This document shows positions 5,997 through 57,919 of a stretch of DNA of 64,000 nt, piece after piece. A program made the translations under genes and the position numbers. The stretch covers positions 744,001-808,000 of the forward strand of contig CP021226.1 of the NCBI GenBank assembly GCA_003999685.1, read 5' to 3'. The DNA is from Taiwanofungus camphoratus (lineage: Eukaryota; Basidiomycota; Agaricomycetes; Polyporales; Taiwanofungaceae). The notes under the pieces were generated by a model. The model had not been told where the DNA came from. It saw only the letters and a list, made by a program, of their open reading frames with translations, and made no database searches. Numbering within the stretch: position 1 is the stretch's first letter; each line of letters opens with the position of its first letter.

Positions 5997-6514
5997 CAAT
6001 GGCTGCAGGAATGGGACCTATTTGTAAAGCCAGAGAAATGCATGTTCGATGTTGTTGAGGTTGACTTTTTGAGAATGACCATCTCACCTGGACAGGTGCA
6101 CATGGACAAGGACAAACTGGCAGGAATCGCAGATTGGCCCATTCCTACCAGGGTCAAGGATGTAGAGTGATTCATGGGCCTCGCCAACTATTATCGACGC
6201 TTCATCCACAACTTCTCCCACATCGCCCACCCCTTGAATGTCATCAAGAAGAAGCGTGTGGAGTGAGACTGGACTGAAGCCTGCCAGGAGGCCTTTGATG
6301 AGCTCAAACAGTGTTTCCAGAGCATGCCTATCCTCTGCATGCCCGACTCGTCCAAACCATTCACCATTGAGGCCGATGCCTCTCTGGTAGCCACTGGTGC
6401 GGTGCTCCAACAACTTGATGAAGAAGGGCGGCTACACCCTATAGCTTTCCTCTCAAAGAGCCTGAAAGAGGCGGAGCAGAATTATCAAGTATATGACAGA
6501 GAGTTGCTAGCCAT
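5997..6514 (+). pseudogene. Element A RT thumb and start of RNase H
   Basis: Continuation of pol after the solo LTR: KPEKCMFDVVEVDFL, ADWPIPTRVKDVE, then FMGLANYYRRFIHNFSHIA and an RNase H start (FTIEADASLVATGAVLQQ, YQVYDRELLAI). Stops near 6168 (Arg expected) and 6265 (Trp expected) are TGA. The frame is cut at 6514 within ELLAI by element B and resumes at 26597 with VRALEEWHHHLE. Confidence 0.88.
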
Positions 6515-7068
6515 TGATACAAGCTGGTATCAACGACCGGAGAGCCTTGAACGTGAGGACCTGACTACGAGAGATGGTAGCAAGGCTTTATGGACACTGT
6601 GTATGTCCTCCTGGGCAAAGTCAATAGAGTCGAGCGAGTACTCAAGTACGAAGTGAGAGGTCGCAAGATACGAGTATAAGATTGCTAGTGGTAACTAGCT
6701 ACTTGGTAACCAGATTGAACTTAAGGTCCGACCTACAAAGTACACGGCCTTATATACGTATTCTACTCTGCGCACGGACCATGGCACATGGTCTAAGAAT
6801 CAGCATGAGTAAGCGTAAGTAAGGTGATATGAGTCATCGGGCCATATTAGCAATCAGTAAGCGTAAGACAGAATGTGTAAGCGGGGCCCGATATGAGTCA
6901 GTGTCCATGAGTAACTGGGGCCCGTCCGGGGCCTGTACCGTAAGCAGCAATGAGTCAAGATGCTGCACAAAGAAGCTGGGCCTACCCGAGGCCCGTCCTA
7001 GAAGCGAAAGGTCACGGGACCGATCCGAGGTCCGACCGATAAGACGTGCAATAAAAGAAATTGTATCA
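6515..7068 (-). repeat. 3' LTR of element B
   Basis: 554-bp LTR with 8-bp inverted ends TGATACAA/TTGTATCA. It is intact and about 97% identical by eye to the split 5' LTR. Open reading frames inside it occur in both LTR copies and I do not regard them as genes. Confidence 0.92.
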
Positions 7069-7750: not shown

Positions 7751-8767
7751 TGATACACACTATAACACTCCAACCCCAACAGGGTACGACCTAGAGAAGC
7801 TGGAAGGCTATAGAACTAGTTAGTGTGGAGGGGAGAGTCAGCAGCAAAGGGTTCCCGATCTCAAATGGGTCGAGAGACGTTTACGAAGGTCTTCGATGAC
7901 CTTCGGTGTGTGTTGCGACTGCGCTACTATGCTGTACTATACTAAGGAGAGGCTTAAATGTGGGAACTTAGCTGATATGCAGCCCTTCGAAATACTGTAG
8001 AAGGCGGACTTGGGTTAGAGAGAGATGCTAGCGCAACCCTTCGATGTGGCTCGAAGGCGGACGTAAGACTGAACACAACTCTTCGACGGATGTCGAAGAC
8101 AGACGAGACGCAACCCTTCAAAATACTGTAGAAGGCGGATAGTAGACGCAACTCTTCAAATGTAATCAAAGACAGAAGGATGCAGTAGAACGCAGTAGGT
8201 GACTGAATCGAAGGTGCTCTTCTTGAGCTCTGCAGGATGGGGGAAAACTTCTCTGTCGTTCCGAGACACCATACATCGTGTTTATACTACTGTACTATAA
8301 TATAAGGCGCATCGGGAGTGGCATAGTATGAGTGGCATCCTAACTACTTGCATACTACGAACTACAGAGTGGCCTGTAGAGGGGGTGGCTACTTGTCGTC
8401 ACTAGAAAGGCTGAAACAAAGGAACATACATGAAATATACTAAGACAAGACCTGGGGCCGTAGCGTTATCAAGTACATCGAGTGGCGCGTCATAGCAGAT
8501 CGAGCGATATCGGAGTGGCGAGACCGGTCACGTGCGAGGACATTGAGTGGCAACTGCGTGTGGTGTATTGTGCATAGAGGGACCGGTACACCAGAACATC
8601 GGACCAGAACTGGCGGAGTGGTGGTGGCGTGATTCGAGGCTATCGGAGAGTCCCACGGTGGCTTTTCGGGCTGTATCAGACACGTCGAGTGGCGTCGAAG
8701 CCATGACTAAGGTCCTAGGGTCGAGTGAGGGCACTCTGCAGGGCCTAGAAGTGCCTGGCACCTATCA
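7751..8767 (-). mobile_element. Solo LTR of the C family inside B's chromodomain
   Basis: Reverse complement of the element C LTR. It starts (minus strand) TGATAGGTGCCAGGC and ends GTGTATCA. It is 1017 bp, longer than the 980-bp copies because it has an extra stretch near 8340-8430 that is also present in the decayed copy at 35300-35390. Flanks are GTGG (7747-7750) and GCGG (8768-8771), a 4-bp duplication with one transition. The insertion cuts the codons of WKGYSS/TDDSW. Confidence 0.88.
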
Positions 8768-15579: not shown

Positions 15580-15680
15580 TCCCCAAGCGGTGGGGTCGAT
15601 TGTCTCGATGGTAGACGTGGTGTCTAACGGTTAGCCCTACTAGATAAGACTAGGGGCGACTTAGTGTAAGTTCGATCTTT

Positions 15681-16213
15681 TGATATAAACTGGTATCAAC
15701 GACCGGAAAGCCTCAAACGTGAGGACCTGGCTACGAGAGATGGTAGCAAGGCTTTATGGACACTGTGTATGTCCTCCTGGACAAAGTCAATAGAGTCGAG
15801 CGAGTACTCAGGTACGAAGCGAGAGGTCGCAAGATACGAGTATAAGATTGCTAGTGGTAACTAGCTACTTGGTAACCAGATTGAACTTAAGGTCCGACCT
15901 ACAAAGTACACGGCCTTATATACGTATTCTACTCTGCGCACGGACCATGGCACATGGTCTAAGAATCAGCATGAGTAAGCGTAAGTAAGGTGATATGAGT
16001 CATCGGGCCATATTAGCAATCAGTAAGCGTAAGACAGAATGTGTAAGCGGGGCCCGATATGAGTCAGTGTCCATGAGTAACCGGGGCCCGTCCGGGGCCT
16101 GTACCATAAGCAGCGATGAGTCAAGATGCTGCGCAAAGAAGCTGGGCCTACCCGAGGCCCGTCCTAGAAGCAAAAGGTCACGGGACCAATCCGAGGTCCG
16201 ACCGATAAGACGT
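15681..16213 (-). repeat. 5' LTR of element B, major part
   Basis: 533 bp matching 6515-7047 with about 16 transitions. It is cut at 16213 by element C; the last 21 bp of the LTR lie at 26571-26591. The two pieces total 554 bp, equal to the other LTR. Confidence 0.92.
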
Positions 16214-17194
16214 TGATAGGCGCCAGGCCCTTCTAGGCCCTGCGGAGCGCCCTCACTCGACCCTAGGACCTTAGTCATGGCTTCGACGCCACTCGACATG
16301 TCCGATACAGCCCGAAAAGCCACCGCGGGACTCTCCGATAGCCTCGAATCACGCCACCGCCACTCCGCCAGTTCCGGTCCGATGTTCCGGTGTACCGATC
16401 CCTCTACGCACAATACGCCACACGCAGTTGCCACTCAATGTCCTCGCACGTGACCGGTCTCACCACTCCGATATCGCTCGATTTGCTACGATGCGCCACT
16501 CGATGTACTCGATAACGCTATGGCCCCAGGTCTTGTCTTAGTATATTTCATGCCACTCCATAATTCGTAGTACGCAAGAAGTTAGGATGCCACTCGTACT
16601 ATGCAACTCCCGATGCGCCTTACATTATAGTACAGTAGTATAAATGCGATGTATGGTGTCTCGGAACAACCAGAGAAGTTTTCCCCTATCCTGCAGAGCT
16701 CAAGAAGAGCACCTTCGATTTAGTCACCTACTGCGTTCTACTGCGTCCTTCCGTCTTTGATTACGTTCGAAGGGTTGCGTCTACTATCTGCCTTCTACAG
16801 TATCTTGAAGGCTTGCATCTCGTCCGTCTTCGACATCAGTCGAAGAAGTTGCGTTCAGTCTTACGCCCGCCTTCGAGCCACATCGAAGGGTTGCGCTAGC
16901 ATCTCTCTCTAACCCAAGTCCACCTTCTACAGAAATTCGAAGGGCTGTACATCAGCTAAGTTCTCACGTTTAAGCCTCTCCCTAGTTTAGTACAGCATAG
17001 TAGCACATCGAAGCTACGTCGAGCAGTCGCGACACACGTAGAGGGTCGTTGAAGACCTTCGTAGACGTCTCTCGACCCATTTGAGATCGGGAACCCTTTG
17101 CTGCTGACTCTCCCCTCCACACTAACTTGTTCTATAGCATTCCAGCTTCTCTAGGTCGTACCCAGTAGGGGTTGGAGTGTTATAGTTCACAACA
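16214..17194 (+). repeat. 5' LTR of element C
   Basis: 981-bp LTR with a TATA-like motif AGTATAAATG near 16638. Downstream of it is a run of TTCGAAGG-type repeats (CCTTCGA/TCGAAGG) at about 16700-16960. The 3' LTR and the solo LTR at 30599 are nearly identical. Confidence 0.93.
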
Positions 17195-17216
17195 TTTCTG
17201 GAGCCCACCGTGAGGG
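17195..17216 (+). promoter_or_regulatory. Candidate primer-binding site of element C
   Basis: Directly after the 5' LTR the sequence TTCTGGAGCCCACCGTGAGG has the usual position and a TGG-start resembling gypsy primer-binding sites. Which tRNA it would pair with was not determined. Confidence 0.4.
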
Positions 17217-19972
17217 GATTTCAGACAAGGAATCCGCCGCTTTCAGATTTGCCGAAGACGTCTCCAGTATTCACCCGCTCACAAGCGCGTGAGGCTGCCA
17301 GTCGTAGCGCAAGCGAAAACCTCGACAACAGTTCTACCACCCTTTCCACAACTCCTGACACCTTCGACCATGAGGAAGAAGACCTCGTAAATCACGAGCT
17401 AGAGTTTCCTTCAATCTCCGATGAACGTACTTCGTCTCCCGAGCTTCTAGGGCTATCTACGCCAGAAGTCAACCTCTCGTCCCCCGATCCCTACGAACAG
17501 TCCGGTTCATCGCCTGAGCCAGAGGACCCAGTAGAATCAACATCGCATACCGCTATCCCCACTACTACGACTCTACCCTCGTCCCAGCAGACCGTTACTC
17601 CATACATTCTTCCCAGTTCTTCGAATCACCCCACACCAGCCACCGTCAATCCCTCTAAACCTACAATGAATCAGAACGCGGCACCTACGCCTTTTATGCC
17701 CCCTCGAGGCCATTCGACAGCCCCCATCTTCGACCCGACAGAAGTCCGATCGCTTCGACGTTACTTTCAAGACATCGAAGTCTTATTCACCCAGTGCAGA
17801 ATAGTCGATGACGCAGAAAAGAAGTCATGGGCCATTCGTTACCCCTCGATCGACGTCGCAGACCTATGGGAAACCCTCAAATCCTTTTCCAATCAGACCA
17901 AGACATACGCACAGTGGAAAGCCGACGTCCTAGCACTCTACCCAGATACCGATGACACCAGGAAATGGTCCCTTGCAGACATGGACCAGTTGATTGGGGA
18001 GCGCGCACGCATTGGAATCCACAACGCCGCAGACCTCGGAAGCTACTACCGTGACTTCGTATCTATTACGAAGCACCTAATCACGCAACGACGACTCTCC
18101 GACATCGAACAGAGTCGAGCGTTCCTACGAGGCTTCCAGCCTTCTCTACTCGCGCGACTCGAGGCCCGACTTCACCTGAAACATCCTGACCACTATCCCG
18201 ATGACCCCTATCCACTTTCCGATATTCACGCAGCGGCCACGTTCATTCTTCACGGTACTTCGAGTACGCCGACAGTCGCAGCACCGCAGACAACAACTTC
18301 AACAACTACCCCACCCGGCATGATTAAGACCGAAGACATCTCGACGATCATCGAGAGCCTATCGAAGACCATCGCCACCCTTATCCAGCCCAGTAGTAAC
18401 AAATCGAACGTAGCCGCTAGGCTCCCGTCAACCCAAGGTAGTACAGAACAAACCTGCCACTTTTGCGGCGACCAGAACCATAGTATTCGAAGCTGCCCGC
18501 ACGTAGAAGCAGACATAGCCGCCGGGAAATGCAAGCGTAACACCGAAGGAAAGGTCGTACTCCCAAATGGTCTATTCATCCCGTGTAGTATCCCTGGCAT
18601 TACGATCCGCGACTGCCTCTACGAGTGGATTCGCCGCAACGTGCCAGCAGCACCTGGCCTGCTCTACGGCATCAACGAACAAGCCAGCGTCCAGACCTTC
18701 ACGCTCAACACGGAAGGAAGAATCGAAGCCCTCGAAAGAGAGCTCCTACAGCTTCGAAAACGTAGGGAGGTCTTCGATGGCGTCGAGATTTTACAGCGCA
18801 AGAAACCTACTACGACAGCGCCGCAGACCACAGAAGTTTCTGATACGACCCCCATCTCACGCAGTACCAATAATCCAGCGCCTGACACAGTCAAGTCAGC
18901 AGCTCCTACCGAAGTACCAGTCCCAGCGACCCCAGCTAAACCTTCGACGAGTACCTCTGCACCTTCGACGATCCCCGCAGCTATAGTTCCCCCACTGTCC
19001 GTACCCTTGACACAGCCTGCTACCGTATCTACTCCATCAGTGCCCCCAGTCCATCCCTTTGCAAATGCTCGAGACGCGACCTACGCTCCGCCGAACCTTC
19101 GAAACTTCGCTACACCACCTAAGCCTTCGAACGACAAGGGCAAGGACCCAGCTTACAAGACCATAGTTCCCATCCATCAGCCCAAGCTAGCCGACGACAT
19201 CTTTGCGCGCTCAATGAGAGCTCCTCTCGTCACGCTGACGCCAGAAGAACTCCTTTCGATCTCACCCGACGTACGCAATAGGTATCGAGAAGCAGTTACA
19301 CCCAAGCGAGTATCAGCAGAACCCGTCAATGCGGCACACATCGTAGAGATTACTGACGAAGATGAAGCAAAGGAGGTAAACCAACTATCTTGCTCAGGTG
19401 CAGCGCTACAGCCAGGAGCTACTATCGTTCCCGATCCCTACGAAACTTATCTCAAGCACGTCCCACATGGCGAACATCCCGCCGATCTCACGGTTGCCCG
19501 CGACTCGAACGCTATCCGTTCGATCTACGCGCTCGTCGACAATAAAGAACAGATCGAATGCATCGTAGATCCAGGCTCACAAATCGTAGCAATGTCGGAG
19601 GAAGTCTGTTTAGGCCTGAAGCTTCTCTTCGACCCTACGATACAGTTAAACATGCAGTCCGCCAACGGTGAAGTAGACCGATCTCTGGGGCTCGTACGCA
19701 ACGTACCCTTCCAAATTGGTGAGGTAGTGTTATATCTTCAGGCTCACGTCATTCGAAACGCAGCATACAACATTCTTCTCGGACAACCCTTCGACGTCCT
19801 TACGCAAAGCATCGTAAAGAACTTTGCGAACGAAGAACAAACCATCACGATAGTATGTCCCAACTCCGGTGAAACCCTCACAATTCCTACGTATCCGCAC
19901 GGAAAACCACGCTTTCGACCGCAACATTATAGAAGCTGTCCGCATGTGGGTTTTCACGCTTCAAGGATTTGA
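17210..19972 (+). CDS. Element C ORF1: gag with CCHC knuckle and aspartic protease
   Basis: 920-codon open frame, intact. It is open from just after the LTR with no early ATG; the first in-frame ATG is 17666-17668 (MNQNAAPTPFM). Order: Ser/Thr/Pro-rich N-terminus, capsid-like region (FDPTEVRSLRRYFQDIEVLF onward), zinc knuckle CHFCGDQNHSIRSC near residues 416-429, a long Pro/Thr/Ser-rich linker, then a protease-like domain with CIVDPGSQIVAMSEEV near residue 790 and NILLGQPFDVL. The catalytic triplet reads Asp-Pro-Gly rather than Asp-Thr/Ser-Gly. It ends by overlapping pol in the -1 frame at 19969-19972. Confidence 0.85.
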   Translation: MRGFQTRNPPLSDLPKTSPVFTRSQAREAASRSASENLDNSSTTLSTTPDTFDHEEEDLVNHELEFPSISDERTSSPELLGLSTPEVNLSSPDPYEQSGSSPEPEDPVESTSHTAIPTTTTLPSSQQTVTPYILPSSSNHPTPATVNPSKPTMNQNAAPTPFMPPRGHSTAPIFDPTEVRSLRRYFQDIEVLFTQCRIVDDAEKKSWAIRYPSIDVADLWETLKSFSNQTKTYAQWKADVLALYPDTDDTRKWSLADMDQLIGERARIGIHNAADLGSYYRDFVSITKHLITQRRLSDIEQSRAFLRGFQPSLLARLEARLHLKHPDHYPDDPYPLSDIHAAATFILHGTSSTPTVAAPQTTTSTTTPPGMIKTEDISTIIESLSKTIATLIQPSSNKSNVAARLPSTQGSTEQTCHFCGDQNHSIRSCPHVEADIAAGKCKRNTEGKVVLPNGLFIPCSIPGITIRDCLYEWIRRNVPAAPGLLYGINEQASVQTFTLNTEGRIEALERELLQLRKRREVFDGVEILQRKKPTTTAPQTTEVSDTTPISRSTNNPAPDTVKSAAPTEVPVPATPAKPSTSTSAPSTIPAAIVPPLSVPLTQPATVSTPSVPPVHPFANARDATYAPPNLRNFATPPKPSNDKGKDPAYKTIVPIHQPKLADDIFARSMRAPLVTLTPEELLSISPDVRNRYREAVTPKRVSAEPVNAAHIVEITDEDEAKEVNQLSCSGAALQPGATIVPDPYETYLKHVPHGEHPADLTVARDSNAIRSIYALVDNKEQIECIVDPGSQIVAMSEEVCLGLKLLFDPTIQLNMQSANGEVDRSLGLVRNVPFQIGEVVLYLQAHVIRNAAYNILLGQPFDVLTQSIVKNFANEEQTITIVCPNSGETLTIPTYPHGKPRFRPQHYRSCPHVGFHASRI

Positions 19973-22900
19973 TACCCCATCGTCAAGGAGAAGCAGCCCT
20001 AGTCATCAACTACGATGGGGCAAAGCCAAGTATTTCTTTCGTCGCTCCGATAAATTCTTCGATCTCCGGCGCAGTCCAGTCTCTTTATCTCTCTGCTTGT
20101 TCTTCAGTCTCCTCACATTTGCAGTCTCTCTATACCGCAGACACAAAAGCATCCAGTTCGGCCACATTGAACGCTTCGACGTGGGCTTCGACACTTCTAT
20201 TTTCAGCCCCTTTTGCTTCACTTCCTAATCCGTCCTTTTCGAACTCTTCGAATTGCGCTTCGACCTCTCAGCTTCTTAATTCCATTCATCCGACATCTTC
20301 TACGTCGACTCACGAAACCTATGCAGCTACTAAGAAGAAGTACAAGCCAGTCGCACTCAAGACTTGTCCCGTTCTAGGAGCGGTCCCCAAGCAGTTTCGA
20401 ATAATTCGAGATATCAAGGGGGACCCCCTATCTATTATGCCAGTACTCTCAGCTGACCCCCCACCCTTCGAACCTACTGGCCATTATACGCGTGAACGCT
20501 TTGAAATTACGGAGAAACTTCATGACGGCACCTTCCTGCTCTCCGACGAGCGTCGAGTTCTCCATCACTTCATGTGCTTGCACAACGAAGCCTTCGCATG
20601 GACCGACGAAGAAAGGGGATGCTTCAAACCAGAGTACTTCCCTCCTGTAGATTTCCCCATCATACCACATACGCCCTGGGTGCAGAAGAATATCCCAATT
20701 CCACCTGGGATCTACAATCAAGTCTGCGCAATAATCAAGCGAAAGATCGACGCAGGTGTCTACGAGCCTTCGAACTTGTCGTATCGATCGCGTTGGTTCT
20801 GCGTAGTAAAGAAGGACGGGAAATCTCTTCGACTCGTACACTCCCTCGAGCCCCTTAACGCAGTTACTATACAGCACTCCGGCGTACCACCAACGCCAGA
20901 ATATCTCGCAGAACAGTTTGGAGGAAGACCGTGCGGTGGCATGCTCGACCTCTACGTAGGCTACGACGAACGACTCATCGCGGAGTCTTCAAGAGACCTT
21001 ACGACGTTCCAAACTCCCTACGGTGCCATGCGACTCGTCACCCTTCCGATGGGTTGGACGAACTCAGTCCCTATATTCCACGACGACGTCACGCACATTC
21101 TACAACCCGAAATCCCGCACTCTACAGTCCCCTACATCGACGACGTTCCAGTCAAAGGCCCCGCATCTGACTACAACGATAAGCGGCTGCCTTCGAACCA
21201 TGGGATTCGAAGATTCGTATGGGAACACTTCAAAAACTTGAATCGAATCGTTACTCGAATGTGCTACGCAGGAGGAACCTTCTCCAGCGTAAAGAGCGTT
21301 CTAATCTCGCGCGAAATCATGGTCATAGGGCACCGGTGTACTCCTGAAGGACAGTTGCCCGACGACTCTCGAGTCTCAGCAATACGCAACTGGGGCCCCT
21401 GCGCTACGCTCTCCGATGTCTGAGCGTTTCTAGGAACTATCGGAGTTGTTCGAATCTTCATACGCAACTTCACCCATCGTGCCGAGGCGCTCGTACACCT
21501 TACGAGGAAGGATGTAGAGTTCGAATTCGGTCCTGAGCAAATCGTAGCACAAGAAGACCTCAAGGACGCTCTACTCTCCTCCCCCGCACTACGAGCTATC
21601 AACTACAATTCCCCGTCTCCCGTAATCCTCGCAGTCGACACTTCATTCATTGCAGTTGGGTACCACCTTTGTCAGTGCGACGAAGCCAACACTCGAATCC
21701 GCTACTACAACTGCTTTGGCTCTATCATGCTGAACGATCACGAGCGAAGGTTCTCTCAACCTAAACTCGAGATCTACGGTCTATTCCGTGCCCTTCGATC
21801 CCTTCGACTTTACCTTATTGGCGTTTGAAACCTCATCGTAGAAGTCGATGCTCGCTACATCAAAGGCATGCTCAAGAACCCAGATATCGCCCCCAGCGCA
21901 AGCATCAACCGCTGGATAGTAGCCATCCTCACATTCCACTTCACGATAGTACATGTTCCCGGTACAATGCATGGCCCCGATGGTCTCTCTCGACGTACAC
22001 CACAGCCAGGCGACACGGTCGTAGAAGAAATCGACGAAGACTTCGACGACTGGATTGATCACATGCACTCCTTTGTACATCAGATACTACCTCCCTCTCA
22101 TGCCCCTACGATGTCCATGCTAACCAATGCAGAAGCCGAGGACGGCTCCAATGTCAAAAAGGAGGAAGATAGCTACGAAATTTTCCCGCGTTCAGAGCAA
22201 GTGCAGCTCGCAGATGCAAGACTCGATGAGGTCCTCGAGTTTCATCGAACACTTTCGAAGCCAGAAGGCATTTCGGACAGCGAATATGAAGGGTTTCTCA
22301 AGTACTGCGTGCTGTTCTTCTTGGATAACGACACTCTATGGCGAAAAGACAACCACGGCGCGCACAAGTTGGTCATCAAGCCTGGCGATCGCCTTCGAAT
22401 CCTTCGAGAATGTCACGACTGCACCGCTCATCAGGGCATCTACGCAACAAAAGTCTTCGTCAACGAATGATTTTGGTGGCCGTTCCACTACGCAGATATA
22501 GCATGGTTCGTCCGAACGTGCCATCTATGCCAGTCTTGTCAAGTCCAGCAAATCCTTATTCCCCCTACCGTCGCAATGCCCGCCCCTATCTTCGCAAAGA
22601 TACATATTGATACGATGCATATGCCCGCATCAGGTGGATACAAATACCTCGTACAAGGAAGATGCTCCCTCACGACGTACCCGGAGTTTCGAATGCTTCG
22701 AAAAGAAACAGCGTCAGCGCTCGCTGACTGGATCTTCGAAAACATCCTCTGTCGATGGGGCGCACTCAGCGAGATCGTTACGGACAATGGTGCAGCGTTT
22801 ATCAAAGTGGCAGACTATCTGTCGAAGAAATACCACATCAACCACATTCAAATCAGCGGCTACAACTCTAGAGCTAACGGACTCGTCGAACGACCGCACT

Positions 22901-23586
22901 TCAGCACGAGACAAGCCTTGTTCAAAACCGCCGATGGAGACGAGAAGAAGTGGTCTCGCGTGGCGTACTTCGTATTCTGGTCCGAACGCATTACAACTCG
23001 ACGACGCATGGGTTGCTCACCGTACTTTGCGGTAACGGGCACCCACCCCCTCATCCCTCTCAACATCGTAGAAGCCACGTACCTTCAGCCCCCTCTCACT
23101 TCAATTCTTTCTATGACAGATCTCATCACACGTAGAGCAATCGCGCTCCAGAAGCACGTAGAGCAAGTAGCCGAACTCAGCTCAAAGGTCTACGAAGCTC
23201 GTCGATCAGCAGCACTTCGCTTCGAAAAGGAGCATGAGCACTCGATCAAGGACTTTAATTTCAAACGAGGAGACTTAGTGCTCGTACGAAACACGAAGAT
23301 CAAGAAGTCCCTGAATAGCAAGATGCGCCCCCACTACTTAGGCCCCCTCATCGTTGTCTCACGCAACAAAGGTGGCATGTACATCATCTGCGAACTGGAC
23401 GGCACAGTCCTCAACCGGCCCATCGCAGCATTTCGAGTCATCCCCTACTTCGCTCGACAATCCATCCCTATCCCGGACAACCTAGAAGACATCTCAACTG
23501 AGCGTCTTCGAGAACTTGAACGATCCAATTCGCTCGGGGATGACGACGATGACATCGTCGAAGACGTCGAAGAAAGCGAGCAGTAG
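19969..23586 (+). pseudogene. Element C pol: RT, RNase H, integrase, with three TGA stops
   Basis: Pol frame continuing from ORF1 by a -1 shift; no ATG at its start. RT motifs: SRWFCVVKKDGKSLRLVHSL, LDLYVGYDER, TPYGAMRLVTLPMGWTNSV, and YIDDVPVKGP as the catalytic box. RNase H-like DTSFIAVGYHLCQ and LEIYGLFRALRSL follow. Integrase: HDCTAHQGIY, FWWPFHYADIA, CHLCQSC, Asp in KIHIDTMHM, Asp in EIVTDNGAAF, Glu in ANGLVERPHF, and a C-terminal FKRGDLVLVRNTKI. Stops at 21421-21423, near 21827 and at 22468-22470 are all TGA where Arg (CGA) fits. It is otherwise nearly intact and ends in an acidic tail. Confidence 0.88.
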
Positions 23587-23980
23587 AAGCCCCTGTCTCT
23601 TTACTTATACTACTATGATGTGTACTTTCAACGGTCTCATTTCTCTTACTATATGCTTGATTTCACCTCTCTTTCTATTTGATCTAGCATCATTTTTACC
23701 TGTACCATACTCGATTCAACTCGACTAAGTCGCGATATCGCTTCGACGTTCTACGAACGTTTCGATTTGAACGTTGCGCGGAGGCTCACATTCTACGAGT
23801 CCTCCTAGGCAGTGATGACAAACTGAGCCTACCAACGCTACCATTTTTCTTACCAAGTCCTTCGATATGTTCTTCTTCTTCGAATGCTTCTATTTCCTTC
23901 TAACACGCATTTCACAATTGGGACAAAGAATGTTTAAATTTTCTATAGTACAAAGACCACGACCCGCCACAAGACAACGA
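23587..23980. other. Spacer between element C pol and the antisense gene
   Basis: About 390 bp without a convincing ORF, pyrimidine-rich at 23600-23720. The two genes converge here, so both 3' untranslated regions and polyadenylation signals should fall in it. I see no confident signal. Confidence 0.5.
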
Positions 23981-25347
23981 CTACTCCTCATTGCCCGACT
24001 CAGCACCCACGTCGAAGCCGCCGCCCGCAATCGCCTCCTGTTCCATGCGAATCAGCTCCAGATCGAGGTCATGGAGCATGGCGCGGCGAAATGCAATGTT
24101 CGCGCGCTCCGCCCGAATCATGCAGATGGCGGTGCGCGACTGCTCATCGAGGTCGAGCGAGTCCAGGTCATCCTGCTCGAGGCCCAGGCGACTACCACCA
24201 TCCAGGGGAACCTTGATAGCGGGGCGAGGCGGCTGGGCCACTCGACGGTGCTTCGATCTGCTGACCTCTCCCGTCGAAGGTCCAGGTGAAGGAGGGGGGG
24301 CTGCAGAGAAAGACAAGTCAGGGACAAATGCAAGAAAGAAGAAAAAGACTCACCCTGCTTCTTCGCACCACCGCGAGTCTTCTTTGTACGACCCAAGACC
24401 GAGACCCCACCGAAATAGCAGCCCTGCACTGCCTGGATGCACCGCTCACACGCAGTGGCGCCCTCCGCCCAGACACACTCGACGGTCTGAATACGGATTT
24501 GACATCGATCGCACTACGAAGAAGCATTAGCTCAGGAGAGTAGCTGAAGAAACAAATCACATACCTTTTCCCCCGCCTGCTGCTTCATCCGCGCAACTCG
24601 CGCCCAGTCAGTCTCGGGCGCCGTCGAGCCGTCGCGGTCGCTCTTTGACGCCTTCTACAAGCCGGTCAGTAATCGAATAGGAGGGCAAGACTCTGTAACG
24701 TACCGCCGCAGTGTCATCATCCCGAGCCCGTTTCTTTCCCTTCGAAGTGGCAGCGGCCCCTTCGACGTGCTCCCCAGTACCCTCCACCATCCTAGACACG
24801 TCGGCATCTGCCAACTGCGCGGCCTCCTCCGCCTTTCATTGAAGGGCAGCCTCCTCCTCCTCACGCACCCGAGCCACACGCGCGGCTTCTTCTTGGCGGC
24901 GTTCTTCTTCGACACGACGAGCCTCGGCCGCAGCAGCACGGAGGCGTGCCTCTTCTTCGTGACGCCTCTCCTCTTCAATGCGACGAGCAGTGACGGCGTC
25001 GATCGCAGTGGCCAGGGCCGGCCATTCATCGTGGACCCACACGGCCCACGACTCGGCGGCAATCTCAGCGAGCTCACCAACCAGCGTCGACACACGCTCA
25101 TCCACCTCCACGTCCTCAACGGGCCCCCGCGCCTTGCGATATGTACTCTACGACAGAGGTAGTTAGCAAATAGGAAAGGACGAGCTGATAAGAGACGTAC
25201 CAGCAAATCCGCAACATCCTGCGCCCAAGCTTCGACCTCCTCGGGGACGGTGTCGGCACAGGGTGTATCGAGTACCGCGATCAGACGGTCCCAAGCGCGC
25301 TGAACGCGCGAAGCGACGACAGTGGGGGTAGCAGAACGAGAAGGCAT
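23981..25347 (-). CDS. Antisense five-exon gene in element C: coiled coil plus six-Cys cluster
   Basis: Exons on the minus strand are 25347-25201, 25147-24704, 24654-24565, 24513-24354 and 24300-23981. The introns of 53, 49, 51 and 53 bp all run GT-AG, and the joined length (1161 nt) keeps one frame of 386 residues. In order: N-terminal helix-rich part; an Arg/Glu/Ala coiled coil (about residues 100-152); a basic stretch KGKKRARDDD; then, starting at residue 228, six cysteines spaced C-X2-C-X8-C-X8-C-X2-C-X6-C, similar to fungal Zn2Cys6 clusters except for the longer first loop; then basic RTKKTRGGAKKQ and an acidic C-terminus. One in-frame TGA at 24836-24838 (codon 153) probably replaced CGA. 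I infer a nuclear, possibly DNA-binding protein; function unknown. Starting 239 bp inside the 3' LTR, it may be driven by a promoter there. Confidence 0.75.
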
Positions 25348-25573
25348 TGTAAGGAAAAGGAGGAGATGATAGAAGAGGGGGAGCGTGTCGAATGTGGAAC
25401 GATGAGCGAAGAAAAACAGCTAAGTTGCTCCGGCTTAAATCCTTCTCAACGGCACGTGATTGGCACGAGTCACGAGAAGGTCGGAACCGCGCAGGTCCCC
25501 ATAAAAGCTTCGATCCAGTCACATCCACCAAGCGTCTAGGCATCACGTGTGGACCGGGGACGGTCCAAATTCC

Positions 25574-25586
25574 AAAAAGGAGGAGA
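25574..25586 (+). promoter_or_regulatory. Polypurine tract of element C
   Basis: AAAAAGGAGGAGA directly abuts the 3' LTR start TGATAGG. An uninterrupted purine run in this position primes plus-strand DNA synthesis in LTR elements. Confidence 0.8.
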
Positions 25587-26566
25587 TGATAGGTGCCAGG
25601 CCCTTCTAGGCCCCGCGGAGCGCCCTCACTCGACCCTAGGACCTTAGTCATGGCTTCAACGCCACTCGACATGTCCGATACAGCCCGAAAAGCCACCGCG
25701 GGACTCTCCGATAGCCTCGAATCACGCCACCGCCACTCCGCCAGTTCCGGTCCGATGTTCCGGTGTACCGATCCCTCTACGCACAATACGCCACACGCAG
25801 TTGCCACTCAATGTCCTCGCACGTGACCGGTCTCGCCACTCCAATATCGCTTGATTTGCTACGATGCACCACTCGATGTACTCGATAACGCTACGGCCCC
25901 AGGTCTTGTCTTAGTATATTTCATGCCACTCCATAATTCATAGTACGCAAGAAGTTAGGATGCCACTCGTACTATGCAACTCCCGATGCGCCTTACATTA
26001 TAGTACAGTAGTATAAATGCGATGTATGGTGTCTCGGAACAACAGAGAAGTTTTCCCCTATCCTGCAGAGCTCAAGAAGAGCACCTTCGATTTAGTCATC
26101 TACTGCGTTCTACTGCGTCCTTCCATCTTTGATTACGTTCGAAGGGTTGCGTCTACTATCTGCCTTTTACAGTATCTTGAAGGCTTGCATCTCGTCCGTC
26201 TTCGACATCAGTCAAAGAAGTTGCGTTCAGTCTTACGCCCGCCTTCGAGCCACATCGAAGGGTTGCGCTAGCATCTCTCTCTAACCCAAGTCCGCCTTCT
26301 ACAGAAATTCGAAGGGCTGTACATCAGCTAAGTTCTCACGTTTAAGCCTCTCCCTAGTTTAGTACAGCATAGTAGCACATCGAAGCTACGTCGAGCAGTC
26401 GCGACACACGTAGAGGGTCGTTGAAGACCTTCGTAGACGTCTCTCGACCCATTTGAGATCGGGAACCCTTTGCTGCTGACTCTCCCCTCCACACTAACTT
26501 GTTCTATAGCATTCCAGCTTCTCTAGGTCGTACCCAGTAGGGGTTGGAGTGTTATAGTTCACAACA
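25587..26566 (+). repeat. 3' LTR of element C
   Basis: 980-bp copy of 16214-17194. The TATA-like AGTATAAATG lies near 26010. It ends CACAACA followed by the duplicated ACGT. Confidence 0.93.
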
Positions 26567-26570
26567 ACGT

Positions 26571-26596: not shown

Positions 26597-28546
26597 TGTC
26601 CGAGCACTTGAGGAATGGCACCACCACCTTGAGAGAAGTGGACACCTGGTCACGGTGATCACCGACTGCAAGAACCTCATCTATTTCTGAGAAGCACAAT
26701 GACTCAACCGACGCCAGGCCTGATGGCAGGTATTCTTGTCGCAATTTGACCTGCAACTATTAAACAAAAAAGGCAGTTGACTCATAGTCGCCGATGCACT
26801 CTCTCAGAGACCTGACCACCCAGGAGGGGAGCATGACAACGAAGGTGTCGTCCTGCTACCAACAGACCTCTTTGTCAATGCCACCAACACTGCAATCATC
26901 GAAAAGATACGTGAATGTCGTAGTCGTGACAGGATGGTCATTGAGATGATTGACACTTTAAAACGGGAGAAGGTACCATCATTCAAGGGCACAGGCTTTG
27001 TGCACACAAAACTGGCAGACTGGGACATTCAGGAGGAACTAATTTTATACAAAAACCGAGTTTACATACCCCCTGATGATGATCTGCGCCAAGAAGTCAT
27101 TCAACTCTGCCATGACACATCAGCAATGGCACACCCAGGGGCACAAGGTACGATGACCATCGCTCAAAGAGACTGGTTTTGGCACAGAATGTCTTCATGC
27201 ATCGAGAAATACGTTGAGGGTTGCATCAAATGCCAGGAGAGCAAGATCAACACACACCCCACAAAACCCCCCCTGATGGCCATCCCCACAGAACCAAATT
27301 CAAGGCCATTCTCTCACATATCGGTAGACTTTATCACTGATCTACCAGAGTCACAGGGCTTCAATGCGCTCATGGTAGTGGTCGACAGAGAACTCACCAA
27401 GGGCATTGTGCTCATACCCTGCACCAAGAACATAGATGCGGTAGGGACGGCAGAGGCCCTACACCTCAATGTATACAGGCAATACAGCCTACCTGACCAG
27501 ATGATATCCAACCGAGGGCCACAGTTCGCAGCGGCCACATTTCGAGAATGGTGTAAGCTGACAGGAGTCAAGGCAGCAATGTCCACCACCTACCACCCCC
27601 AATCAGATGGAAGTACAGAATGGGTCAACCAGGAACTGGAGGCGGCCTGGAGGATCCATGCGCAAATGACCCCCACACCTGGGTCAAACACATCCCCGAG
27701 TTCAAATTTGCACACAACCAGGTGCCGCATGCTGGAAGGAAGGAATCGCCATTCAAGCTCACTATGGGGTATGACCCGAAGGCCATTGGCTCTCCACGAC
27801 CCTCTGACAAATACCCCACACTCCAAGACCGTCTGATCCAGATCTCTGAATCCCGCAAAGAGGCCCTTGCGGTGCAAGAGCTAGCCCAGAAGCTGATGGA
27901 GGAATGAACCCCTTTTCCCTGGAAACCTTTCCAGGAAGGTGACAAGGTTTGGCTAGAAGCCATGAACCTCTGACTAAGAACAATAAGTCAGAAATTTGAC
28001 CCAAAGCAGCTTGGACCCTTCAAGATCACAGAAGCCAAGGGGCCACTGATGTACAAGCTACAGCTCCCAAGAACCTGGAAGATTTACCCGGTGTTCCATG
28101 CATCACTGCTCACCCCATACAGAGAAACAGCAGAACACAGACCCAACTTTCTGAAACCCCCACCTGATCTGGTTGAAGGGGAAGAGGAGTACGAAGTTGA
28201 GACCCTCCACGGGCATTGTGCCCGACGTGGGAAGTGGGAGTTCCTCATCAAATGGAAGGGATGGCCGGTCTCTGCCAGCACCTGGCTGAAGGAAGACGAT
28301 CTATGGCATTCCCCTGACCTGCTGAGGCGTTATAAGAAGGCAAACCACCTAGGCATCAACCCAGTTGGCAACCATTCAACTACCCTGCAAAGAGCAACTC
28401 CGCAGCATTTCAAGGCCACCTCCCACCATGTCACATCGAACCAACGCCGCCCGAGCCCGCTTTGCCATCTCCATCCTCACCGCAGGGAATGCCCGCACCC
28501 TGAATCCCTTCCTTCAGGGACCGCAGAACCTCCCCAACTTTGCTGA
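26597..28546 (+). pseudogene. Element A RNase H end, integrase and chromodomain
   Basis: Resumes at VRALEEWHHHLERSGHL with RNase H motifs VTVITDCKNLIYF and IVADALSQRPDH. The integrase zinc domain shows LCHDTSAMAHPGAQGTM and CIKCQESKI. The core shows SVDFITDLPESQGF, QMISNRGPQFAAATF (Asn where the second catalytic Asp is expected, GAC to AAC) and HPQSDGSTEWVNQELE. A frameshift near 27650 moves the reading frame. The C-terminal part has LRTISQKFDPKQLGPFKI and the chromodomain KWEFLIKWKGWPVSASTWLK at about 28220-28345. TGA stops near 26688, 26701, 26742, 27904 and 27970 fit lost Arg or Trp codons. Inactive. Confidence 0.88.
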
Positions 28547-29275: not shown

Positions 29276-29775
29276 TGTTACCGACGGGTAGAACTAGAGA
29301 CTTGTTCATTTTTTCTTTCCCTTTGTTCGTCACACCATGGACGCGCAACATCCCTTCCACGCATTACTTACCCAGATTGACTGACGGGCCAACCGTCCCC
29401 GCTTACGCCATGGTAGTTATGTACTTTCAGGCCGCTGACTCCTCTTGCCTTATGCTGTCTCTGGGGGACTGCTTAGTATACCTGGGGGTCAGTGGTGGCA
29501 GTATAAAGGAGGGACCCCCTGCTGGAGGTTTCCTTAGTCATATTCTCTTTGTTCATCCATTCCAAAGTGTACTACGCATTAGTACCAATACACACTTTTC
29601 TTTACACATCTTCCCACACCCCAAGAAGCCCGTAAAGACTATCGCGACTACATAAGGCTTGTAGTTGAAGACTACTGAGGATTGTGACTCATCGTCACTG
29701 CCGTTCCTCCTCGACCCTTCGCTGCACACTGCTCTAAGCTTCTGCAGCATTACCAGGGTGAACCCCCTGGTAACA
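29276..29775 (+). repeat. 3' LTR of element A
   Basis: 500-bp partner of 1415-1914, preceded by the purine tract GAGAGGAGATGGGGG and followed by the target duplicate GCCAG. Confidence 0.93.
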
Positions 29776-30598: not shown

Positions 30599-31578
30599 TG
30601 ATAGGCGCCAGGCCCTTCTAGGCCCCACGGAGCGCCCTCACTCGACCCTAGGACCTTAGTCATGGCTTCGACGCCACTCGACATGTCCGATACAGCCCGA
30701 AAAGCCACCGCGGGACTCTCCGATAGCCTCGAATCACGCCACCGCCACTCCGCCAGTTCCGGTCCGATGTTCCGGTGTACCGATCCCTCTACGCACAATA
30801 CGCCACACGCAGTTGCCACTCAATGTCCTCGCACGTGACCGGTCTCGCCACTCCAATATCGCTTGATTTGCTACGATGCACCACTCGATGTACTCGATAA
30901 CGCTACGGCCCCAGGTCTTGTCTTAGTATATTTCATGCCACTCCATAATTCGTAGTACGCAAGAAGTTAGGATGCCACTCGTACTATGCAACTCCCGATG
31001 CGCCTTACATTATAGTACAGTAGTATAAATGCGATGTATGGTGTCTCGGAACAACAGAGAAGTTTTCCCCTATCCTGCAGAGCTCAAGAAGAGCACCTTC
31101 AATTTAGTCATCTACTGCATTCTACTGTGTCCTTCCGTCTTTGATTACGTTCGAAGGGTTGCGTCTACTATCTGCCTTCTACAGTATCTTGAAGGCTTGC
31201 ATCTCGTCCGTCTTCGACATCAGTCAAAGAAGTTGCGTTCAGTCTTACGCCCGCCTTCGAGCCACATCAAAGGGTTGCGCTAGCATCTCTCTCTAACCCA
31301 AGTCCGCCTTCTACAGAAATTCGAAGGGCTGTACATCAGCTAAGTTCTCACGTTTAAGCCTCTCCCTAGTTTAGTACAGCATAGTAGCGCATCGAAGCTA
31401 CGTCGAGCAGTCGCGACACACATAGAGGGTCGTTGAAGACCTTCGTAGACGTCTCTCGACCCATTTGAGATCGGGAACCCTTTGCTGCTGACTCTCCCCT
31501 CCACACTAACTAGTTCTATAGCATTCCAGCTTCTCTAGGTCGTACCCAGTAGGGGTTGGAGTATTATAGTCCACAACA
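30599..31578 (+). mobile_element. Solo LTR of the C family inside the LINE
   Basis: 980-bp LTR nearly identical to the LTRs of element C (TGATAGGCGCC to CACAACA). Flanks are ACGG (30595-30598) and GCGG (31579-31582), a 4-bp duplication with one transition. No internal region is left, so it is the product of LTR-LTR recombination. Confidence 0.9.
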
Positions 31579-32233: not shown

Positions 32234-32565
32234 AGTGTCTGTTGAAGTCTGACTTACATGTCAAAATATCGGACTAATGCACTGCATTGTAATGCTGTGC
32301 TTAGTTACCTTAGAGACCATCACTACACAGCATTACTATGGACACTGCCTCATCTTAGTTACAATCACTGTACAGCCTTGTTGATATCAATCTGCACAGC
32401 CATGCAGTGCACACAGCCTTAGTATCCTAGTTACTGTAGCACTGCATAGCCTTACTGTAGATGTATATAAACCCTAAAGTCCCAGTCCTGGATCCCCAGT
32501 GACTTACATTGGACTCTAGGTATGTCTTGTATATTTTCTTGTTAATATATTAGTGACTTACATTG
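32234..32565. mobile_element. 332-bp insertion in the LINE, unclassified
   Basis: It interrupts the LINE frame between the codons for DRRARV and DNPNYRG. Flanks share GACT (32230-32233, 32566-32569). It contains TGTATATAAACC (about 32463), a TATA-box-like motif, and two 22-bp direct copies of a GTGACTTACATTGG-type sequence (32498-32519 and 32552-32573), the second running into the LINE target. It could be a small solo LTR or another non-autonomous element; the ends are set by the broken reading frame. Confidence 0.5.
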
Positions 32566-33540
32566 GACTCTAGCTCTTCTGTCCCAGCAAGTCATCTCTG
32601 CTTGCATATATCTTGGAGTGTAACTCCTTGTGATATTGTCTGAACTTAACAGTGTCCCCCAACGCTTTTTGACCCTTGCCTTAACACGAGCAAGGGCCAT
32701 CGATTGTGAGATGAATTCCAGTTGGGGATCATCCAATGCTTTCTTCGTGAGTTCGTCAACAAACTCGTTCTGAAAAATGCCTTTATGGGATGGAACCCAA
32801 AAAAGGACAATGTGTCGGTGTTCATCTGCATCGAGGAACGCTCGGACGTGTTGAGAGGCCATGACCACTGCCATCTGCGACAGTCTGACCTCCGTCTTGA
32901 AAATTTGATCGAGTGCCGATTGGTTATCAGAACAGACTATAAGGGTGGTGATGTGGACAGGGACATCACGGACTGCTTTACGCAGCCCGCGCGCCAATGC
33001 CAGCATCTCTGCATCAAAGCTCTGGACCTTGCCTGCCTCGAACTTCCCATGGGCAATGTGATCTTCCCTGTCAATGATGAGCCACGCGCTATCAGATCTC
33101 ACTTGTGGTGCATTTGCATACGATCCATCAGTGAATAGCATTCGCCCTTCTGGCTGGGCCAACTGACGCCGGAATTCCGGCCACCAGGTGAACTCCAACC
33201 AGTCGGCAAATTCTGGTGAGCTTTTGTTTGGACCTTTTCCGTCCAGGAACACCCACTCAAAGCGATCAATGTACCGATCCACGACCCGTTCACCGGGCCA
33301 CGCCTCCGGATGGAGGGGTGCAAAGTCTTCTGATGACTACCGCCCGATGCAATCTATGAACGTCATGGGGGTGATAGCCTGTTTTTTGCCACGGCGCAAG
33401 TTAAGCGGCCATGGCGCAGTGATATTGGTGATGTTGGTCGCCCAATAAGGTGGAAGAGCGGCCCTCATTGGGTGCCCTTCATGAACTCGCCACGTTCTAA
33501 GCGCAGTTTTCTCCATGTATCGGTCGACCTGAATGCGGAT
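32566..33540 (-). pseudogene. LINE RNase H domain
   Basis: Minus-strand open frame 33282-32542 plus upstream remnant. RNase H signature residues: the Asp of MLFTDGSYANA, the Glu of FDAEMLALARGL, the Asp of LIVCSDNQSALDQIF and the His/Asp region VLFWVPSHKGIFQNEFVDEL. This arrangement is typical of the RNase H downstream of RT in I/Tad-type LINEs. One TGA lies near 33340. The 5' end is truncated at about 33543. Confidence 0.88.
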
Positions 33541-55559: not shown

Positions 55560-56201
55560 GGTCTGAGTGAGTGAGAGAGGGCAGAGGAGGGCGAGCACCG
55601 CCTGGAGGCTAGATTTGAGCTGCCGGGTACATCTCTGATGGGATGGCGGAATGTATGATGGGCATCAGGCCGAGTGGCTTCCCTCGTCACAAGGCGACAA
55701 GGCTTGTGCGAAAAGGTGACAGGGAAGGTAGCGCGGAAGCTAAATCGAGGCATGGCGAATGGCGGGGACGGGCGTCAGAGCTAGAATGGAGACTTGTGCC
55801 GGCAGAGATATCAGGGTGGAATGCAGTGAACGTCTTTTGACAGTCTGTGCTCCGCGAGCGACTATGTGTTAGATTGAGCACATTGCTCGGCTCGAGGCAG
55901 ATATTGACAGATTCATGTAGCTCGAGTCCGATTCGTGCAATCCGAGATTCCAAAGATCTACAGAGTAGCAATGGAAATAATGTTGAAAAGACAGAGGAAA
56001 AATACCAGACACAAGTCCCAGCTGACTCGGAGGTCGGTGTACACGCCAAGACCAATTCGATCAGATACACTGTGCTGTCACATCTCGATCTAAATATCCC
56101 TACTTCACCTTCCATAAATGGACTATCCACGTGGCGCACGAACTCGCCCAGCTCTCCTGCACCATGCATCGCGCTACCTCTGCAACAGCCCAGAGCCTAC
56201 C
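55560..56201. promoter_or_regulatory. Divergent promoter region, arrestin-like 2 / RFT1
   Basis: About 640 bp between two divergently transcribed genes. No ORF is supported. It must hold both promoters; no specific site is identified. Confidence 0.5.
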
Positions 56202-57919
56202 ATGGCCTCAGGATCTGGGACACCTCCAGTCACATCCTCACCGCCTGCACAGAAAACAGACCTGCTACTCTCCACCGCCTTGGCCTCCGCATCCTCTCTC
56301 GTCCTACTGCAGCTCTTCTCTCGCATATTTACCTTCATCCTCAACCAAGCTCTCGTCCGATTAGTCTCACCCCAGGTATTTGGTACAGCTGCCATTCAAT
56401 TTGAGCTCCTGCTCTCCACCATTCTCTTCCTTGCGCGCGAGGGCGTCCGCAGCGCTCTTCTCCGTGCACAGTCCCCTCCGAACAAGGCTTCTGCAGATAA
56501 CTCACCCCGGGCTCGTTCTGGGGACCTCATTACCAACATCTCCGTGCTTCCCTCTCTCCTTGGTATCCCCGCGTCTGTCCTCATATCTCTCATCTACATC
56601 AACACCACTTCCGCTTCTACCTCATCGCAGCCTTATTTCGTGCACAGTGTCGCCATCTACACCTTCGCAGCGTGCTTCGAGCTCCTCGCTGAGCCTCTGT
56701 ATATTCGCTCACAGAACGAATTTCGGTTCGATCTTCGCGTGAGAGCCGAGGGCCTGGCTGTCTTCTTCAAAACCGTAGTCACATTCGTTGTATTGGCAGT
56801 TGGCTCAGCCCAGTTAGCTTTGCTTGCCTTTGCTCTGGGACAGGCAGCGTATGGGCTTGCCGTCCTTGCGTCTTATATCCGTGCCTATGGGAGCCTCGTT
56901 CTCTGGCCCAAAAAGGTTGCGCTCACGGTGCATGGCAAGTGTGTGTTTCCGGCTTCATCTCTGTGCAGTCTTCTGATGATGCAGTAGCACAAAGTCCATG
57001 TACTTTGATCCAGAGCTACTGCAGTTATCTAGGGCTATGACAAGCCAATCTCTTGTCAAGCACTTTCTGACTGAAGGTGACAAGTTCCTCGTCTCTCGCC
57101 TCAGTCCCTTAGCGGACCAGGGCGGATACGCTGTTGCATCCAATTACGGTATGTCTCGATTACAATCTCGCGTTTCCTCTGGCTATCATCTCATACATCA
57201 AACTCCCACCAGGATCACTCATTGCCCGCATCATCTTCCAACCAATTGAAGAGACCTCCCGCGTGTTCTTTTCTAAGACACTTTCCGCATCCCCGTCAGA
57301 CAAGCAAGCCGCGCTCCAAAGCGTCTCCGGAACGCTCTCCGGGTTCCTCCTTCTCTTCGCGCACCTCTTCCTCTTCCTCGTCGCCTTTGGCCCGCCTTAT
57401 CTCCCTCTCGCCGTCACGCTGCTGCTCCCTCCGCGGTTCCTAAACACCTCTGCCCCGACGATCCTGCGCACGTATGTATATTACATTCCCACGATGGCAT
57501 TCAACGGCGTGCTCGAGGCGTTCTTCGCGTCCGCGTCGGCTCCCGCGGACCTGCACGCGCAGAGCAGGTGGATGTTCGTGTTCTCGCTCGGCTTCGTCGC
57601 CGTCGCGGTGGGACTCGCGAAGGGCCTCGGGCTGGGCGACGCCGGGCTCGTGTGGGCGAATGTCGCGAACCTGCTCTGCCGGGCGGCGTACGCTTGGGCT
57701 TTTGTGCTACGCTACTTCCGAGAAAGTGGCGCGGGTGAGCTAGTGGACTGGAGGAAGTCGGTGCCGCCGGTGAAGGTTCTGATTGTGTTTGCGGCTTGTG
57801 CTGCCGTCATGCGGATGAGCGAGCAAAGTTACGGTGGCTATCCACTAACTGTCCGTGATCAGATGGGCCATATAGGGACGGCATTGCTCTGCCTTGGAAG
57901 CTGTCTGACTGCTTGGTGA
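56202..57919 (+). CDS. RFT1: RFT1-type lipid-linked oligosaccharide membrane protein
   Basis: Three exons: 56202-56938, 56988-57148, 57213-57919, joined to 1605 nt (534 residues). The start ATG (ACCATGG context) gives MASGSGTPPVTSSPP. Many membrane helices are visible, and Rft1-like motifs include FSRIFTFILNQALVRLVSPQ, FELLAEPLYIRSQNEFRFDL, EGDKFLVSRLSPLADQGGYA and ARIIFQPIEETSRVFFSK. It is an ER protein required for N-glycosylation, acting on Man5GlcNAc2-PP-dolichol on the way into the lumen; whether it is itself the flippase is disputed. Length matches the family. Confidence 0.95.

Follow-up and report, generated by a model that had tools for sequence, protein, structure and literature searches.

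A spliced antisense gene for a six-cysteine protein inherited with Gypsy-type LTR retrotransposons of Taiwanofungus camphoratus

Gypsy-type (Ty3) LTR retrotransposons of Taiwanofungus camphoratus carry a spliced, protein-coding accessory gene on the strand opposite to gag-pol, which is inherited with this lineage in at least two families of the genome. Between subfamilies, purifying selection acts on the antisense exons, and none of six cysteines varies among the aligned proteins; constraint, intron conservation and the occurrence in two separate families establish that this is a true gene. The best explanation overall, to which a probability of roughly 0.6 is assigned, is that the inherited antisense gene encodes a nuclear, zinc-binding regulator of its own element. 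All positions given without further label refer to the window, i.e., the whole stretch of 64,000 nucleotides that was analysed.

Results

The host element

The element that carries the antisense gene extends over 16214..26566 on the plus strand. It is bounded by a 5' LTR of 981 bp (16214-17194, +) and a 3' LTR of 980 bp (25587-26566, +), which are mismatched at 14 of 980 aligned positions, and the tetranucleotide ACGT flanks the element at both ends (16210-16213 and 26567-26570). These borders bear out the LTR element that an earlier note on this DNA had placed around the gene. A putative primer-binding site containing TGGAGCCCACCGTGAGG lies directly 3' of the 5' LTR (17195..17216, +), and the polypurine tract AAAAAGGAGGAGA lies immediately 5' of the 3' LTR (25574..25586, +). 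The gag-pol region (17210..23586, +) consists of several open reading frames with protease and weak rve matches, and its end at 23586 is 394 bp away from the stop codon of the antisense gene. Pfam profiles detect an aspartic protease, an RNase H and an H2C2 integrase in the near copy L010, and the matching RNase H profiles are those of Ty3-type polymerases. The assignment to Ty3/Gypsy rests on the LTRs, primer-binding site, polypurine tract, protease, RNase H and H2C2 integrase together. Neither the 1061-aa nor the 469-aa frame of L010 is matched by the RVT_1 profile at E up to 0.1, and none of the window frames scanned is matched at E up to 0.01. Since the Chromo profile has no match in the 1061-aa pol frame of L010, the element is not classed as a chromovirus. 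No CCHC zinc knuckle is matched by Pfam at E up to 0.01 in the 920-aa gag-protease frame (17210-19972).

The gene-bearing element is nested inside an outer, chromovirus-type element with LTRs at 1415-1914 and about 29276-29775, a GCCAG duplication and a chromodomain match in the reading frame 28049-28546. A 534-bp direct repeat (6514-7047 and 15680-16213), with the two units 97% alike, reaches precisely up to the point where the gene-bearing element inserted. Apparent solo LTRs of the gene-bearing family are found at 30599-31578 and 7755-8767 (-), and their flanks, ACGG/GCGG and CCGC/CCAC, again show a central CpG or its decay product. Further along the window, a reading frame with an RNase H domain (32542-33282, -) probably belongs to another retroelement, and the host genes near the repeats encode an Rft1-like protein (56118-57919, +) and an SNF5-like protein (63118-63942, -).

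Exon-intron layout of the antisense gene

The antisense gene runs from 25347 to 23981 on the minus strand and consists of five exons, which are read in one frame across four short GT-AG introns. Exon 1, with the predicted ATG, corresponds to 25201..25347, exon 2 to 24704..25147, exon 3 to 24565..24654, exon 4 to 24354..24513, and exon 5, which includes the stop codon and the conserved C-terminal part, to 23981..24300 (all on the minus strand). The intervening introns have lengths of 53 nt (25148..25200, phase 0), 49 nt (24655..24703, phase 0), 51 nt (24514..24564, phase 0) and 53 nt (24301..24353, phase 1), likewise on the minus strand. All four display a GTRNGT donor and a YAG acceptor, with a CTRAY motif that begins 15-21 nt upstream of the intron end, so that the five exons and four introns proposed earlier are recovered with their splice signals. 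The joined exons of the window copy comprise 387 codons including the stop. The single open frame of 386 residues claimed by the earlier note is, however, not found in this copy, which is broken by an in-frame TGA at codon 153 in exon 2.

The six-cysteine motif, for which the spacing C-X2-C-X8-C-X8-C-X2-C-X6-C had been given, is confirmed in the joined protein with its cysteines at residues 228, 231, 240, 249, 252 and 259 (24418..24513, -). In the window copy, intron 3 abuts the first of these cysteines on its 5' side. The remainder of the protein appears to include an Arg/Glu/Ala-rich, coiled-coil-like segment at residues 96-170 (24785..25009, -), as judged from the sequence alone, and contains the Lys/Arg-rich stretches KGKKRAR, TKKTRGGAKK and K-R/H-RRV.

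The block upstream of the antisense ATG

The antisense gene is preceded at 25348..25586 on the minus strand by its putative promoter and leader. This block of about 240 bp, which separates the 3' LTR from the antisense ATG, is well conserved among the diverged window-type subfamilies, and contains a TATA-like GGATTTAAGCC (25442-25432, -) and two CACGTG boxes (25453-25458 and 25544-25549). Of 20 window-type copies, 18 have a TTTAA box, mostly as GATTTAAGC, 91-105 bp upstream of the ATG; the exceptions are L041, where the distance is 73 bp, and L010, which has none. At least one CACGTG, followed by a pyrimidine-rich leader, is found in 15 of the 20. The conservation of the block suggests that the gene has a promoter of its own in the window-type families, and the block would then act as the core promoter. 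In the sister copy L051 neither a TTTAA box nor a CACGTG was seen.

A second polypurine-tract-like 18-mer (25355..25372, +) lies just upstream of the antisense ATG. Three of the 17 near copies contain such a repeat of the 18-mer at the polypurine tract (25574-25591) in this place. One of these three, L010, lacks the 220 bp between both repeats, a pattern as a template switch would give. L010 is open although about 220 bp of the block, together with the TATA-like box, are lost.

Copies in the same genome

A genome search with the 1367-bp gene region yields at least 41 matching places (the copy numbers of the gene region and of the sister places are lower bounds). Seventeen near copies extend over the full length and are 92-100% alike; eight of them are open over 386 or 388 codons and nine, the window copy included, are broken. 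A further near copy that is split in three by insertions (L026-L028) was left out of the 17. As counted by eye, GT-AG is kept in 66 of the 68 introns of the near copies. Another 20 copies are diverged, with 69-79% identity, and where they retain the region their donors, branch motifs and acceptors, read by eye, have mostly persisted despite a DNA identity of about 70%. The intron 2 acceptor of several such copies lies one codon further on, with the frame intact. Four (L030, L031, L034 and L040) of the 11 diverged copies with both ends are open over the full length, a count which omits the nine of 20 in which an end has been lost or rearranged (L029, L032, L039, L042, L043, L044, L045, L047 and L048). 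The search through other element copies proposed in the earlier note thus finds the frame and the introns kept elsewhere, and the claim of a real antisense gene whose introns survive copying holds, given the intact splice sites and the purifying selection described below.

A search with the last 90 residues also leads to 41 places, 37 of which are arranged tail to tail with a window-type integrase match. The distance between the matched stretches is 387-413 bp in 36 places and 964 bp in one. The other four places are partial, L048 being a fragment and L029, L049 and L050 being pieces that contain stops. This pairing used the 48 window-type matches among 120 integrase matches, and beside three window-type integrase places (C13:274220-275224, C11:841490-842453 and C9:1095289-1095546) no gene match is found. 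The antisense reading frame accordingly lies between pol and the 3' LTR on the opposite strand, the position of an aORF-3R, and its presence in 17 near and 11 diverged copies and in at least 40 sister places shows that it belongs to most copies and is not a single transduction.

Coding constraint

Eight copies, chosen for being open, were used in the dN/dS and divergence tests. The absence of stops in their gene frame is therefore no separate evidence; opposite-strand frame 0 is likewise stop-free in two of the eight. Between subfamilies (six pairs), dN is 0.21-0.27 and dS 0.93-1.15, giving dN/dS ratios of 0.21-0.27, which are approximate as dS is near saturation. The comparison among copies that had been suggested earlier hence reveals purifying selection. 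Within subfamilies (three pairs) the ratios are higher, 0.35-0.59, because decay after insertion is added. In four wrong frames, compared in five pairs, dN/dS amounts to 0.82-1.49. The opposite-strand frame that shares third positions takes values of 0.37-0.44 (five pairs), below those of the other wrong frames and above those of the antisense frame, and contains 3 to 15 stops in each of the eight copies. The divergence at aligned sites in four pairs is 27-30% in exons and 40-48% in introns.

The constraint is unevenly distributed along the protein. When L010 is compared with L030, L031, L034 and L040, dN is highest in the N-terminal part and the coil (0.30-0.40; 0.34-0.40 for the coil), takes values of 0.16-0.40 in the linker, and is lowest in the cysteine and C-terminal parts (0.11-0.16). 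Under fixed splice rules, none of 300 dinucleotide-preserving shuffles of L010 reaches 1100 coding nt, the maximum being 675, and real L010 and L012 give 1212 and 1158 coding nt, respectively. With 741 and 666 coding nt, the diverged open copies L030 and L034 stay well below these values, since not all of their splice signals conform to the strict rules applied. A chance frame is rejected by the dN/dS ratios, the wrong-frame controls and the shuffles.

Sister family and relatives elsewhere

A second and more abundant Gypsy family of the genome, with an integrase that is about 74% alike and open frames of up to 1284 aa, carries a homologous gene at the same place and on the same strand (L051 834-2211 (-); G000:C2:1848129-1849514). 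The sister and window-type proteins share 25% identity, and all six cysteines match. Introns 1 and 3 are located at the same alignment column and intron 4 is one column off, with identical phases of 0, 0 and 1, whereas intron 2 is missing in the sister gene. Three of the four sister copies that were read are open, and the gene is found in at least 40 places at 96-100% identity. The six cysteines are invariant in all 15 aligned proteins. From the cysteines, position and introns shared by both families it follows most simply that the gene predates the family split.

Outside these families, a search with the whole protein, in which 8000 candidates were scored, returns 23 matches, 21 of them from Postia (Rhodonia) placenta and the rest from T. 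camphoratus. With residues 212-386, 76 of 77 matched proteins are from Postia/Rhodonia placenta and the other is again from T. camphoratus, and part of the sister protein has one match in the protein database, a T. camphoratus gene model. Some introns are removed in public gene models, namely sister intron 1 in P0081 (AcW1_001443) and window-type introns 2 and 4 in P0011 (AcV7_007205); P0011 and P0013 omit most of the cysteine exon. We infer from the splice signals, their conservation and these gene models that the antisense transcript is probably spliced. According to the available text of PMC8865532, gene prediction for T. camphoratus drew on RNA-seq.

Tests for known domains

Fungal Zn2Cys6 regulators follow the spacing C-X2-C-X6-C-X5-12-C-X2-C-X6-8-C. 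The antisense protein resembles them in having six cysteines arranged in two C-X2-C based halves, and some Rhodonia homologues carry the source name 'Zn(2)-C6 fungal-type'. It differs from them in the gap between the second and third cysteines, which is X8 in the window-type and sister genes and X9 in the aligned Rhodonia proteins, where Zn2Cys6 needs X6, and in the lack of a PF00172 match at E up to 1 for two window-type proteins and the 22 members of alignment A2. A canonical Zn2Cys6 domain is rejected on these two grounds. The term 'zinc-cluster-like' used in the earlier note is thus fair as a description, but does not extend to membership of the Zn2Cys6 class.

No convincing Pfam relative is found for the window-type proteins or alignment A2; neither the TRP28 domain (PF04195) nor a bZIP family is among the Pfam families matched. 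In the PDB the C-terminal half has no match at E up to 1, and the cysteine profile gives one match, to a beta-expansin at E 1.3. For three proteins searched against NCBIfam no family comes near the cut-off. A DNA-binding fold is therefore not supported by any profile in Pfam or solved structure in the PDB.

Insertion sites and decay of copies

The insertion sites of window-type elements were taken as the last four bases before LTR starts, with a pattern that omits G as first base and thereby also removes polypurine-tract starts. At the 73 readable of 75 places, the central dinucleotide is CG in 48, TG in 15, CA in 9 and AG in 1. Of 258 LTR starts of the sister family, 52 follow a polypurine tract; CG is central in 177 of the 206 others, and at the 29 of 206 without a counted CG the bases were not read. 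In the window CG makes up 5.4% of dinucleotides. By these counts, nearly all insertions of both gene-bearing families are at N-CG-N or a decay product of it, a second testable surprise. The chromovirus family of the genome shows 5-bp duplications (GCCAG, TTACC and CCCGA) without a central CpG at three complete sites, and no antisense gene of comparable size was seen before the 3' LTR of its window copy. In the literature on CpG target sites, represented mostly by titles and abstracts, no description of such a CpG preference was recognised. In the gene region of the 17 near copies, 156 of 185 singletons are C-to-T changes (on either strand), including 94 at CpG, which is the pattern that methylated repeats would show.

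Discussion

Although antisense genes have been described in LTR elements, most of them lack an explanation. For the gene described here, the reading as a regulator of its own element would involve a promoter of its own, located between the 3' LTR and the ATG, from which transcription proceeds towards pol, and then splicing and translation. The three Lys/Arg-rich stretches could mediate nuclear import, and the N-terminal coil may allow the protein to form dimers. The six cysteines would hold zinc, and the compact fold thus formed might bind DNA or a chromatin protein. By analogy to HBZ, the antisense protein would then regulate the expression or chromatin of the element. The earlier note had envisaged that the gene may control the element or where it inserts, and this may hold. 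The element replicates through its sense transcript, in which the antisense introns are not splice sites and hence are kept; a true multi-intron antisense gene is in this way a natural record of the sense RNA as the replicating form.

Other roles for the protein have been considered. It may oppose methylation or heterochromatin of the element that encodes it, in the manner of VANC in the Arabidopsis VANDAL elements. This is rather unlikely; the C-to-T decay, mostly at CpG, gives the impression that copies are methylated, but at the same time shows that they are silenced despite the gene. An integration-targeting factor, which would bind CpG or a CpG-associated chromatin protein and lead integrase there, would agree with the near-exclusive CpG insertion of both gene-bearing families, with the missing chromodomain match in the L010 pol frame, and with the 5-bp duplications lacking a central CpG in the chromovirus family, in whose window copy no such gene was seen. 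Yet a preference of integrase itself would produce a symmetric central dinucleotide and is the simpler account of CpG insertion. Moreover, nothing ties the antisense protein to integration, and the control consists of three sites from one family, so that a targeting role is considered unlikely. Still less probable is a combination of both roles, in which the six-cysteine factor would recognise CpG or a CpG-bound host protein, direct integration to N-CG-N and shield new copies from methylation. If true, the latter would amount to a self-made system for target choice and anti-silencing outside integrase. The lack of a CCHC zinc knuckle in the gag-protease frame would leave room for a replication or packaging helper, with the cysteine domain acting as a nucleic-acid chaperone or an extra nucleocapsid part in the particle. 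Such a role is distinctly unlikely, in that the motif does not seem to be a CCHC knuckle, a separate antisense transcript would control amounts poorly, and the basic stretches resemble nuclear signals.

Two further explanations concern the origin and nature of the gene rather than the role of its product. The earlier note suggested that the gene may be a captured host regulator, and its introns and promoter-like region are indeed like those of a host gene; it might also have entered the element by chance insertion. All 17 near copies, the diverged subfamilies and the sister family have it at the same place, which contradicts a recent capture, although an old event before the split of both families is conceivable. 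No host copy appears among the best candidates in searches of the genome, and with 37 of 41 places tail to tail with integrase, the other four being partial, and without a convincing relative in Pfam, NCBIfam or the PDB, the proposal is unsupported; a host origin is accordingly judged improbable. Alternatively the antisense transcript itself could matter, through double-stranded RNA and silencing, with an incidental frame. Other elements are known to have antisense promoters that lack coding capacity, as described in the available text of PMC7264820. However, the low dN/dS between subfamilies, a frame that passes through four introns in diverged copies and the invariant cysteines make this reading scarcely credible. 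Antisense RNA without a protein is rejected by the coding constraint; an extra role of the RNA is compatible with it. The regulator of its own element is therefore retained as the best explanation. Its function can be tested, since the families are abundant and a sexual cross as well as RNA-seq data sets have been described for T. camphoratus (PMC8865532, in its available text).

Comparison with known antisense genes

In the literature on antisense or spliced genes of fungal LTR elements and on T. camphoratus, mostly at the level of titles and abstracts, the present gene was not recognised. Several known systems are nevertheless comparable, for which PMC8365987, in its accessible part, is a further source. 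Among plant elements, the aORFs of maize Grande (gene23), rice RIRE2, Silene Retand (with TRP28) and PvRetro13 also lie in antisense between pol and the 3' LTR and are conserved within families, as far as the available text of PMC7264820 and PMC11963269 extends. The Grande antisense gene is reported in the same texts to have its own promoter and a nuclear protein product (PMC7264820, PMC11963269). No intron of the plant aORFs is mentioned in the main text of PMC7264820 or PMC11963269, whereas four are found in the fungal gene. Unlike Retand, the T. camphoratus element has no TRP28 match and carries the six-cysteine motif instead.

Closer in host kingdom is brtn of the Boty-like Gypsy elements of Botrytis cinerea, where an extra antisense gene likewise lies between pol and the 3' LTR of a fungal Gypsy-type element (PMC7264820 and PMC4227169, in their available parts). 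The gag-pol of Boty is described there with a CCHC-type zinc finger and a chromodomain (PMC4227169). The host of brtn is an ascomycete, unlike that of the Polyporales gene.

The HBZ gene of HTLV-1 is spliced, as the gene described here probably is, and likewise lies in antisense near the 3' end of its retroelement; the HBZ product has a leucine zipper (PMC3185765, in its available text). HBZ transcripts start in the 3' LTR, whereas the promoter-like block of the fungal gene is internal and adjoins the LTR (PMC3185765). HBZ is a bZIP protein, and the fungal antisense protein has no bZIP match. The brtn gene was reportedly described by Zhao et al. 2011. Our best guess from the sequence features is that the T. 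camphoratus gene encodes a nuclear, zinc-binding regulator, with a layout comparable to that of HTLV-1 HBZ or Botrytis brtn.
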